Source of the DNA: a virus
Direction: 5' to 3' (one strand)
Length of the DNA: 24,073 nucleotides
IMG/VR virus record: IMGVR_UViG_3300047409_000435
Coordinates: 1-24,073 of that record
In this document: piece after piece, positions 2,700 to 22,133 of the stretch
Numbering within the stretch: the first letter of the stretch is position 1
Layout: every line of letters starts with the position of its first letter
Translations under genes and position numbers: made by a program
The notes under the pieces: generated by a model
Seen by the model: only the letters and a program-made list of their open reading frames with translations
What the model was told of the DNA's origin: nothing
The model's database searches: none

Positions 2700-2920
2700 A
2701 AGTGGAACACGCCGCCATCACCAACCAGGAGCGGTTGCCGCGCCACGCCGGACCGGGGGGCATCCAAGTGCGCTGCCGTTGCGGCCAGGTGCTCGGCCTG
2801 GTCGAGGACGGTCGCCTCTTCTTGCGGCACAAGGGGCGCGAGTTGACCGCCACCCTCCCGGCCGAGGTGCGCTGCGAGCGGTGCGGGTGGCACACCCACG
2901 TCGGATTGACAAGCCGCTAA
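2696..2920 (+). CDS. Com-like small zinc-ribbon protein
   Basis: The 74-residue product carries a zinc-ribbon pattern: VRCRCGQVLG near residues 25-34, then RCERCGWHTH near 61-70. This resembles the phage Mu Com family of translational regulators (IRC..C..LL, then I.CPRC), except that the first knuckle reads C-x-C rather than C-x-x-C. Mu Com binds mRNA, so RNA or nucleic-acid binding is plausible but not shown. The start is the ATG overlapping the glycosyltransferase stop (ATGA). The 3' end of the gene contains the -35 box of the promoter for the head genes. A structural zinc ribbon without regulatory function is the alternative. Confidence 0.65.
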   Translation: MKVEHAAITNQERLPRHAGPGGIQVRCRCGQVLGLVEDGRLFLRHKGRELTATLPAEVRCERCGWHTHVGLTSR

Positions 2921-2934
2921 CGCGCGCCTATAGT
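2906..2934 (+). promoter_or_regulatory. Near-consensus sigma70 promoter for the head gene operon
   Basis: TTGACA at 2906-2911 and TATAGT at 2929-2934 are separated by exactly 17 bases. This matches 11 of 12 consensus positions, which stands out in such GC-rich DNA. The -35 box lies inside the 3' end of the Com-like gene and the -10 lies just after its stop. The expected start of transcription is near 2941, giving a leader of about 92 nucleotides before the prohead protease. Confidence 0.8.
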
Positions 2935-2940
2935 GTTGCC

Positions 2941-3032
2941 ATAACCAACACCCCTCCGGGCTTATGCGGCCCACTACGGCGCGGCTCTACTGCCGCCCAC
3001 TGGTGGGCCTTCTTCATGCCCGGAGGCGCGCG
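2941..3032 (+). promoter_or_regulatory. Folded 5' leader that pairs with the prohead protease ribosome site
   Basis: Three nested perfect stems can be read. P1: CCTCCGGGC (2953-2961) with GCCCGGAGG (3018-3026). P2: GGCCCAC (2968-2974) with GTGGGCC (3003-3009). P3: GCGGC (2981-2985) with GCCGC (2992-2996), loop TCTACT, extendable by two G-C pairs past a one-base bulge. Together they form a rod of about 23 base pairs. The 3' strand of P1 contains the whole Shine-Dalgarno GGAGG (3022-3026) for the GTG start at 3033, so the folded form should block initiation. Whether it responds to a protein, temperature or a ligand cannot be told from one sequence. Confidence 0.65.
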
Positions 3033-3782
3033 GTGGAACTCGAACGCAAGCAACTCGCCTTCAGCCTCACCGAACTGAAAGCCAAAGAGAGCGGCTGGGA
3101 GGTGGCGGGCTACGCCAGCACGTTTGGCGGGACGCCCGACAGTTACGGGGACATTGTCGCCAAGGGGGCGTTCAGCGCCTCCCTCCTCACCCGCCCCAAC
3201 GTGCGCCTCCTCTGGCAGCACGACCTCGCGGAGCCGATTGGCAAGGCCATCAGCCTGACCGAGGACGACAAGGGGCTGCTGGGCCACTGGTCCCTGGTGC
3301 CCACCGACACCGGCACCAAGGCGCACCAGCTCCTCACGGCCGGCCTCGTGGATGCCCTCTCCATTGGTTTCATGACCAAGGCCGCCGACTACAGCGACGA
3401 CGGCACGCGCGTCCTGCGCGAGGTCGAGCTGGTGGAGGTGTCGCTCGTCACCGTGCCCGCCAACACCAACGCCATCGTCACCAGCTTCAAGACCGACCTC
3501 CCCTTCACCGCGCTCCTACAGCAGGCCGGCGAGGCGCAGGCGACCGTCGCGCGGGAGGCGAAAGCACTCCGCGACCGTCGCGCCGCCATCAATCGCCCGC
3601 TCAACGACCAGCACCAGCAAGCGATAGCGGCCTTCCTGGCAGAGGCGAAAGCGCTGCACGAGGAACTGGCCGCGCTCGCGGTCGTGACTCCCGAGGCGGA
3701 AGCCGACGAGTCGGAGGCCCTGGCCCTACGACTGGCACTCGCCCGGCGGCGCTACGCCGCCATTCTCAAGGAGTCAGCATGA
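3033..3782 (+). CDS. HK97-type prohead serine protease (U35)
   Basis: This 249-residue protein is the head maturation protease that cleaves the capsid protein delta domain during assembly. The family core is clear: GYASTFGG with YGDIVAKGAF (26-47), the catalytic His63 in LLWQHD, and the nucleophile Ser110 in DALSIGF, followed by VELVEVSLVTVPAN (131-144). The C-terminal third (about 160-249) is Ala/Glu-rich and helical, as expected for a scaffold-like tail. I chose GTG 3033 because GGAGG (3022-3026) sits six bases upstream and the encoded VELERKQLAFS matches the usual family N terminus. The in-frame ATG at 2964 has no ribosome site and would add 23 unrelated residues. The stop overlaps the capsid start. 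Confidence 0.92.
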   Translation: MELERKQLAFSLTELKAKESGWEVAGYASTFGGTPDSYGDIVAKGAFSASLLTRPNVRLLWQHDLAEPIGKAISLTEDDKGLLGHWSLVPTDTGTKAHQLLTAGLVDALSIGFMTKAADYSDDGTRVLREVELVEVSLVTVPANTNAIVTSFKTDLPFTALLQQAGEAQATVAREAKALRDRRAAINRPLNDQHQQAIAAFLAEAKALHEELAALAVVTPEAEADESEALALRLALARRRYAAILKESA

Positions 3783-5116
3783 GCGCCATCACCGACGTGC
3801 GCCGGCCCATCGAGGACTTGAGCCTCGCGCAAATCAACCAGGAGATTGCCACCCGCTTCCAGCAGGCCGAGACCGCCATGAAGGCCGGCCGGCCCGACGA
3901 CCTCGACCACGCCAAGGCGCTGCTCGAAGAGGTGGACCAGTTCGAGGTGGTGCGCCAGCGGAAGGAATCCCACGAGCAGATGGGCCTCCGCATCGCGGAT
4001 GGCCGCAAGCAGTACGGCACGCCCGCGCAGCCCATGCGCTTCGCCGACGCGCCCGAGGTGGCCGGTGGCGGCGTGCAGCGCGGCAGCAAGAGCCTCGGGC
4101 AGCTCTTCATCGAGTCGCTCGCCTACAAGGCGGCCATCGACAATCGCCTCATCGTCCCCGACTCGCAGATGGGCGGGCCGCTGGTCGTCAACTTCAAGGA
4201 CTATTCGCTCGTCCGCGAGGTGATGGAGCGCAAGGCGCTCATCGTGGGCAACAGCACCACGTCGGGCGGCGCGGGCGTCATCAACGACTTCCAGGCCGGC
4301 TACATCGACGTGCGCCAGCGCGGCCTCACCCTGCTCGACATCGTCAGCCGCATCCCCACCAGCAGCGACACCATCGACTACCTGGTGCAGTCGAGCTTCA
4401 CCAACGCCGCCGCCGGGGTGGCCGAGGCGACCGCCGCCAGCGGCACCAGCGGCACCAAGCCCGAGAGCGCGCTCGACTTCGCGCGCGTCACCAAGCCCGT
4501 CGAAACCATCGCGCACTGGATTCCGGTGACGACCCGCGCCCTGGCCGACTTCCCGCAGATTTCCGCCATCATCGACGGGCAACTGCGGCTCGGCATCGAC
4601 CTGGCGTTGGAGTCCTACATCATCACCGGCAACGGCACCTCGCCCAACCTGGAGGGCATCCTCACCAACACGGGCGTGCAGACACAGGCGCTCGGCTCCG
4701 ATAGCACGCCCGATGCGCTCTTCAAGGCGATGGTCAAAGTCCAGGTGACGGGGCTATCGGTCCCCAGCGCCCACGTCCTCAACCCGCTCAACTGGCAGAC
4801 GGTGCGGCTGCTCCGCGAGAACGCGGCGACCGCCTCGGCCGGCGGGTATCTGCTCGGCCCGCCCAGCATGGTCGGTGCCAACACCCTCTGGGGGCTGCCC
4901 GTCGTCCTGTCCATCGGCATGACCGCCAACACCGCCGTCGTGGCCGACTGGTCGATGGCGACGATGGCCCTCTACGACCGCGAGCAGACGACCGTCCGCA
5001 CCGGCTACATCAACGACGACTTCACCCGCAACATCGTGCGCTTGCTCGCCGAGATGCGCGCGGCGTTCGCCATCTTCCGGCCGACCGCCATCTGCAAGGT
5101 CACCGGGCTGACCTAG
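3779..5116 (+). CDS. Major capsid protein, HK97 fold
   Basis: This 445-residue protein has an N-terminal charged helical delta domain (about 10-75, coiled-coil character) and a C-terminal HK97-fold body. Recognisable body features are SRIPTSSDTIDYLVQ, the ALADFPQISAIIDGQL helix and the ALESYIITGNGTSPNLEGIL segment typical of the family. The delta domain should be removed by the protease encoded immediately upstream. A ribosome site AAGGAG (3768-3773) precedes the ATG, which overlaps the protease stop. A strong hairpin lies about 50 bases after the stop. Expression is expected to be the highest of the head genes. Confidence 0.95.
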   Translation: MSAITDVRRPIEDLSLAQINQEIATRFQQAETAMKAGRPDDLDHAKALLEEVDQFEVVRQRKESHEQMGLRIADGRKQYGTPAQPMRFADAPEVAGGGVQRGSKSLGQLFIESLAYKAAIDNRLIVPDSQMGGPLVVNFKDYSLVREVMERKALIVGNSTTSGGAGVINDFQAGYIDVRQRGLTLLDIVSRIPTSSDTIDYLVQSSFTNAAAGVAEATAASGTSGTKPESALDFARVTKPVETIAHWIPVTTRALADFPQISAIIDGQLRLGIDLALESYIITGNGTSPNLEGILTNTGVQTQALGSDSTPDALFKAMVKVQVTGLSVPSAHVLNPLNWQTVRLLRENAATASAGGYLLGPPSMVGANTLWGLPVVLSIGMTANTAVVADWSMATMALYDREQTTVRTGYINDDFTRNIVRLLAEMRAAFAIFRPTAICKVTGLT

Positions 5117-21239: not shown

Positions 21240-21258
21240 GCGCCAACGTCGCTGAGAA

Positions 21259-21365
21259 GCCCGCTGGTGGCCCCACAGCGGCACACGGCGACGCCCCGCC
21301 GGTTGCCCGTGCGGGGCGCGTCACGCGCGGCCGGGGGCAGCGCGGGGATGCGGGGAGGATAGCAC
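21259..21365. repeat. 107-bp perfect direct repeat, copy 1
   Basis: Identical over 107 bases to 21980-22086 (offset 721). Similarity extends left to 21247 with three mismatches. It can fold into several hairpins: CCGCTG with CAGCGG, GCCCCGC with GCGGGGC, and GCGCG with CGCGC around TCA. Read leftward it begins near GTGCTATCCT, which resembles a weak extended -10 (TGC-TATCCT). It lies between the terminator and the last leftward gene. Function unknown. With the flanking bases it fills most of the 271-bp gap 21121-21391. Confidence 0.9.
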
Positions 21366-21391
21366 ACGCCCGTCGCACCCCGGCGCTACCG

Positions 21392-21940: not shown

Positions 21941-21979
21941 GTGTCCCACGCCCGGTGCCGCCCTTCCCGTCGCTCACAG

Positions 21980-22086
21980 GCCCGCTGGTGGCCCCACAGC
22001 GGCACACGGCGACGCCCCGCCGGTTGCCCGTGCGGGGCGCGTCACGCGCGGCCGGGGGCAGCGCGGGGATGCGGGGAGGATAGCAC
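21980..22086. repeat. 107-bp perfect direct repeat, copy 2
   Basis: Identical to 21259-21365. It lies in the 292-bp gap 21878-22169 between two leftward genes, with a hairpin on either side (21901-21940 and 22086-22133). Nothing in the gap other than these elements is recognisable. In one frame both copies encode the same peptide, but neither copy has a ribosome site for it. Confidence 0.9.
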
Positions 22087-22133
22087 CCCCCGCCCGGTGC
22101 CGCCCGGTGCTGCGGTGCCGGGGGGCTTCTTTG
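22086..22133 (+). terminator. Terminator-like hairpin beside repeat copy 2
   Basis: CCCCCCG (22086-22092) pairs with CGGGGGG (22119-22125) around a 26-base loop, followed by CTTCTTTG on the plus strand. The 3' arm and tail closely match those of the 21198 terminator (CCGGGGGGC then TTCTTTGCGC), suggesting a common origin. Activity on the plus strand is uncertain because no rightward gene precedes it. Confidence 0.4.

Follow-up and report, generated by a model that had tools for sequence, protein, structure and literature searches.

A conserved structured leader RNA predicted to occlude the ribosome-binding site of a phage prohead protease gene

Gene order, promoter and leader fold

The window, by which we mean the whole stretch of DNA analysed, comprises 24,073 bases of virus record IMGVR_UViG_3300047409_000435, given as one strand, 5' to 3'. 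Within it, a small zinc-ribbon gene is followed by a promoter-like sequence, a structured leader and the genes for a prohead protease and the major capsid protein (Table 1). The initial annotation had described a promoter, TTGACA and TATAGT 17 bases apart, which is present exactly and matches 11 of the 12 letters of the sigma-70 consensus. No second promoter-like site was found in the window; because about 0.8 + 0.7 such sites are expected by chance, the match alone is little proof. Judged from the promoter alone, transcription would start about 7 bases past TATAGT, near 2941. Downstream, the capsid start overlaps the protease stop by ATGA (3779-3782), and through this overlap the capsid could come under whatever control acts at the protease start.

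Table 1. Features of the head operon and its leader in the window
Feature	Position	Strand	Remarks
Small Cys4 zinc-ribbon gene, 74 aa	2696..2920	+	Called 'Com-like' for its position and its cysteines; candidate trans-acting factor
Sigma-70-type promoter, TTGACA-17-TATAGT	2906..2934	+	-35 at 2906-2911, -10 at 2929-2934; overlaps 3' end of zinc-ribbon gene
Structured leader RNA	2941..3032	+	Presumed 5' UTR of head operon mRNA; z -5.2; covariance model matches in relatives
P1 5' arm (anti-SD arm), CCTCCGGGC	2953..2961	+	GGGC invariant; outer five positions vary among relatives
P2 5' arm, GGCCCAC	2968..2974	+	Predicted fold; pairing across relatives
P3 5' arm, GCGGC	2981..2985	+	Predicted fold; compensatory changes
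P3 3' arm, GCCGC	2992..2996	+	Predicted fold; compensatory changes
P2 3' arm, GTGGGCC	3003..3009	+	Then pyrimidine tract TTCTTC, 3010-3015; terminator score borderline, d = -0.1
P1 3' arm, GCCCGGAGG	3018..3026	+	Holds whole SD GGAGG (3022-3026); invariant in 8/8 close leaders
HK97-type prohead protease (Peptidase_S78), GTG start	3033..3782	+	Pfam PF04586, E 8.7e-29; TIGR01543
Major capsid protein	3779..5116	+	Pfam PF05065, E 2e-37

The three nested, perfect stems claimed for the leader, P1 (9 bp), P2 (7 bp) and P3 (5 bp), are all there, and the outer one does enclose the whole GGAGG of the protease GTG start. Folding gave a minimum free energy of -54.9 kcal/mol, as against -37.2 for shuffled sequences (z -5.2), and none of 200 shuffles was as low. 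The region is 67% GC and its complementary strand folds about equally well; after correction for GC content it ranks among the most stable 105-base stretches of the window, without being unique.

Several other arrangements of this region were considered and rejected. A further perfect 9-base inverted repeat (2921-2929 and 3024-3032) links the promoter to the SD region; its pairing would need read-through transcripts from upstream, and by inspection it is absent in L006 and other relatives. An ORF beginning at ATG 2964 is in frame within the leader of the window, and is not conserved coding sequence because leader indels among relatives are not multiples of three. A four-arm switch, in which the GGGC/GCCC cores would re-pair 1:2 and 3:4, is unsupported at equilibrium: when P1 was forbidden, P2 and P3 stayed, and no 3:4 helix was predicted in any of eight leaders. 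Elsewhere, the right-end region of the window carries a 124-base direct repeat (21247-21370 and 21968-22091, 96%), with further short repeats of 33 and 52 bases nearby.

Conservation of the leader in related phages

Relatives were all metagenomic sequences, with promoters called by inspection. Together with the window, the close group comprises eight mutually related leaders. One belongs to a 96% relative (L002/L057, one contig), a near duplicate of the window whose leader is almost unchanged. L006, L058, L059, L061/L062 (two records carrying the same locus) and L063 have proteases of 59-67% identity in the same arrangement, and L112 combines a diverged protease domain with this arrangement. 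The order common to the close relatives is a TTGACA-type promoter, the leader, GGAGG and GTG. Two more distant leaders were found independently, by zinc-ribbon profile search, in L167 (3190-3345) and L168 (405-566); there, too, the zinc-ribbon gene precedes a TTGACA promoter and the leader. By inspection, TTGACA (TTGACG in L063) lies at the same place, with a spacing of 17-18, in all ten related leaders, and P1 starts 13-18 bases past the -10 element in each of the eight close ones.

Each of the eight close leaders is predicted to adopt the same fold (z -4.4 to -6.8). From these leaders we built a covariance model, which recovered one element per phage, upstream of the prohead protease, in the window and in eight other contigs, L061 and L062 being counted separately, at E-values of 1e-22 to 2e-17 that hold by construction. 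Elsewhere across 62 sources nothing fell below E 0.6 except the complementary strand of the same palindromes. The L167 and L168 leaders are remote matches (E 6.5e-8 and 1e-8). In these two phages the leader precedes an unidentified ORF, followed in L168 by a major head protein (PHROG 3990), and they carry a remote version of the leader with a different head module.

MAFFT did not align the distant leaders well enough for covariation to be counted. In a model-fitted alignment, 97.5% of cells were paired and eight were changed on both sides; the covariation score was 0.227, compared with 0.140 in shuffles (0/500), and slid controls did not exceed 0.084. A manual count of P2 and P3 in the ten leaders gave compensatory types at P2-1, P2-7, P2-8, P3-2, P3-3 and P3-4, with only 2 of 130 cells failing to pair. 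The compensatory changes that a covariance search had been expected to reveal in P1-P3 thus appeared at six pairs of P2 and P3, but P1 had no double change. Mean identity was 86% in paired columns, 59% in internal unpaired columns, 60% at third codon positions of the protease and 36% in the 5' flank. From these comparisons, the leader is a real, conserved RNA structure and not a product of chance. The sequence of P2 is conserved beyond the needs of pairing, which suggests a recognised hairpin.

In L058, an ORF resembling an HNH/AP2-type homing endonuclease (called by eye, about 2750-3460) lies between the zinc-ribbon gene and the leader. The coding sequence normally found upstream has thus been exchanged for this ORF, yet promoter and leader are both preserved, and the -35 element sits in the 3' end of the ORF. 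The proteases of L059 (4001-4726) and L112 (4337-5059) have diverged N-terminal domains, nearly identical C-terminal parts and similar leaders, a pattern that suggests domain exchange with the leader kept.

Further searches returned little. Rfam 15 gave no family at the gathering threshold in the window and none at E 5 in 2890-3060, and the open-access papers searched described no comparable RNA element at the prohead protease of a phage; the initial annotation likewise knew of none. No close protease was found among GTDB genomes in a prophage search; a leader search in 400 genomes of one phylum found none and, having no positive control, is uninformative. DNA pattern scans of viral contigs yielded known members plus chance matches. 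One candidate, L148 (45-150), has a hairpin resembling P2, a short tract and ATGCCCGGAGG, with an HNH-like ORF next and terminase genes nearby. Its GGAGG and hairpin come without a P1 or a covariance model match, and we did not count it as a member.

Predicted burial of the ribosome-binding site, and the zinc-ribbon gene

The predicted cost of freeing the protease SD, 14.7 kcal/mol, is the highest of 17 start sites tested in the window; the other 16, a few of them uncertain as starts, range over 0-8.2. Among 27 sites combining GGAGG with a start codon (median 4.6), its cost was the largest on the + strand, and the sole higher value belonged to the complement of the same palindrome. As in an SD-occluding control leader, the SD is predicted to be paired more than at the other genes of the window.

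P1 is 94.4% paired across the close leaders. Its inner GGGC/GCCC core and the SD strand never vary among them, while the anti-SD strand has G-U changes in L006, L058 and L061 and mismatches in L059, L112 and L063. Predicted occlusion in the latter three drops to 4-10 kcal/mol. The anti-SD arm of L063 is the most weakened (SD pairing probability 0.47-0.56, opening 4.3-5.7 kcal/mol). The pairing of P1 with the SD is therefore less secure than P2 and P3: the fold is well supported because P2 and P3 covary, and the SD pairing moderately so, because the P1 core is invariant and the strand opposite the SD carries mismatches. In most of the group, the fold is predicted to hide the SD of the first gene, and very strongly in this phage.

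Hairpins of other kinds lie ahead of the protease start in nine more distant phages (L067, L071, L074, L075, L076, L081, L082, L086 and L088). The SD is fully or largely paired in most of them, at a predicted opening cost of 8-21 kcal/mol and often with a T-rich tract next; in L067, L074, L081, L082, L086 and L088 it is paired within terminator-arm hairpins. Two hairpins are present in L065 and L070, where the SD sits unpaired in a loop. Just upstream of the protease start, L065, L066 and L070 also show four GCCGGGC/GCCCGGC arms with two possible pairings, and a Com-type gene upstream.

Zinc-ribbon homologues occupy the same upstream position in all ten phages. The four cysteines are invariant in eight homologues, spaced CxC in the window protein and CxxC in several more. 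The window protein had been called Com-like, and its Cys4 module in a small protein fits that description, as do the syntenic small zinc genes beside the protease in more distant phages, which are Com by PF10122 (L073, 4e-6; L069, 5e-5). PHROG 6417, 'translational regulator', likewise matches L065, L073 and L069 (2e-8 to 3e-7). The window protein itself, however, fails the profiles of the Mu Com family (PF10122, PHROG 6417 and PHROG 13819): it has no Pfam, PHROG or NCBIfam family match, and none to PF10122 or PHROG 6417 even at E 10. An hhalign comparison of window-type zinc ribbons with the Com-type set of syntenic proteins gave a probability of 78%. An AlphaFold model (pLDDT 71) resembled no PDB fold at E below 1, and Com proteins searched against the phage record collection found nothing that matched well. 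Inside the invariant GCCCGGAGG, within the helix, stands the Com SELEX motif CC(N)2-3GAG; at about 2.5 per kb across the window it is too common to carry weight. The zinc-ribbon gene and a strong hairpin do not always go together, since the leaders of four phages with a Com-type gene at this position (L073, L077, L078 and L085) do not stand out in folding (z -0.1 to -0.8). By position, fold class and analogy, the zinc-ribbon protein is possibly a factor that acts on the leader.

Candidate mechanisms and known systems

On balance, we think it probable, with considerable room for doubt, that the leader is a cis-acting RNA which, by occluding the SD, keeps head-operon translation low until P1 is opened by a trans factor that recognises P2/P3. 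The promoter match, the covarying P2 and P3, the conserved P1 core and the exceptional predicted SD occlusion in this phage are all computed; where transcription starts, that basal translation is low, that a trans factor releases it and which factor this is, we infer. As the RNA emerges from the presumed start, P3 and P2 would fold first, and the inner P1 clamp GGGC/GCCC would close next. Outer P1 would then cover the protease GGAGG as the SD emerges, and protease translation would stay low until the outer P1 pairs open, with the capsid probably affected likewise through the ATGA overlap. The likeliest opener would be a phage protein recognising the conserved P2/P3 hairpin, with the zinc-ribbon protein as leading candidate, acting as Com does on mom mRNA. 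The translation switch first proposed for the head operon is partly supported, by the conserved fold and promoter and the predicted deep burial of the SD, but P1 lacks a compensatory double change and the hairpin with its pyrimidine tract can also be taken for an attenuator.

Attenuation is the main rival to SD occlusion, and we regard it as unlikely. Here the P2/P3 hairpin and pyrimidine tract would terminate the short leader transcript, RNA polymerase would enter the head operon with the help of a phage antitermination factor, which might be the zinc-ribbon protein, and SD occlusion would be secondary. The hairpin is promoter-proximal, and its homologue in L167 and L168, with U6 or U5 behind it, is a strong intrinsic terminator (d = +48 and +34); P1 does not hold the SD in these two, where the SD lies in a separate small CUCCC/GGGAG hairpin. 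In L067, L071, L074, L081 and L082 an SD hairpin precedes a T-rich tract (with TTTTT in all but one of these phages), with d = +20 to +35. These terminator-like SD hairpins lie about 60 bases upstream of the protease start, the T-rich tract stands directly before GTG, and CGGCCC occurs twice ahead of its complement in several. Within the close group only L112 scores positive (d = +14); the tract is weak in the others (window -0.1, L006 -1.0, L058 -2.5, L063 -17, L059 -31, L061 -33, L057 -35), and attenuation does not require a conserved P1 containing the SD. Translational control and attenuation are not mutually exclusive.

Protection of the 5' end is a poorer candidate, and we consider it improbable. 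Structures near the 5' end protect mRNA from decay in the ompA leader and T7 late leaders, and a closed structure could likewise shield this late mRNA, the SD pairing being tolerated or opened by ribosomes. Both the strong fold in every close member and the start of P1 13-18 bases after the -10, hence near the presumed 5' end, suit such a role. It needs no burial of GGAGG, however, whereas GCCCGGAGG is invariant and occlusion in the window far exceeds that at other genes, and conservation of P2 beyond pairing points to a recognised hairpin.

We give very little credence to a put-type RNA antiterminator, as in phage HK022, in which the nascent leader would modify RNA polymerase for read-through of the long structural operon. 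A short stem-loop RNA right after the promoter of a structural operon, in a window with no other promoter-like site, would fit, but P1 here pairs with the SD, which put elements are not known to enclose, and no Rfam family matched. A chance fold of GC-rich sequence, or a palindrome acting at the DNA level without an RNA role, is already disfavoured and very improbable: the GC content and the equally folding complement are set against a z of -5.2, compensatory changes, a single copy at the same place in ten leaders and a conserved promoter orientation.

More tentatively, and as a possibility we would not bet on, a mobile cassette of zinc-ribbon gene, sigma-70 promoter and leader may time the head genes in several uncultured phage lineages, joined to two different head modules; the zinc ribbon would bind RNA as an activator and act on translation, transcription attenuation or both. 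This cassette, if real, would carry Com-type RNA control beyond DNA modification into virion assembly. Should the occlusion mechanism be correct, an RNA switch would set the timing of capsid assembly in these phages, and the small zinc-ribbon gene upstream of many related proteases would gain a testable role. At about 130 bases, the leader is a compact part suited to reporter assays.

Known systems share parts of this arrangement. In lambda, the Q gene sits upstream of pR' and late antitermination proceeds past tR'; common to both loci are a factor gene directly upstream of a promoter, a short leader with a terminator-like hairpin and then a late operon, but the window hairpin encloses the SD and its terminator tract is weak. 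Hairpins also hide the ribosome sites of the T4 genes I-TevI, soc and e, but there the late promoter is inside the hairpin, which leaves the late mRNA open. The window leader is not of this type, its promoter lying upstream of both arms (the -10 ends at 2934, P1 starts at 2953). The MS2 coat protein binds an operator hairpin at the replicase start as a repressor; a hairpin over a phage ribosome site is shared, and in MS2 it binds a phage protein, whereas the candidate here is an activator-type factor. Closest in outline is phage Mu com/mom, in which a small Cys4 zinc protein gene adjoins its target, the mom mRNA has a structure hiding the translation start with a hairpin beside it, and Com binds that hairpin beside the translation inhibition structure (PMC6483171). 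The target in Mu is a DNA modification gene and here would be the prohead protease and head operon; a separate promoter lies between the two genes here, and the window protein fails the Com family models.
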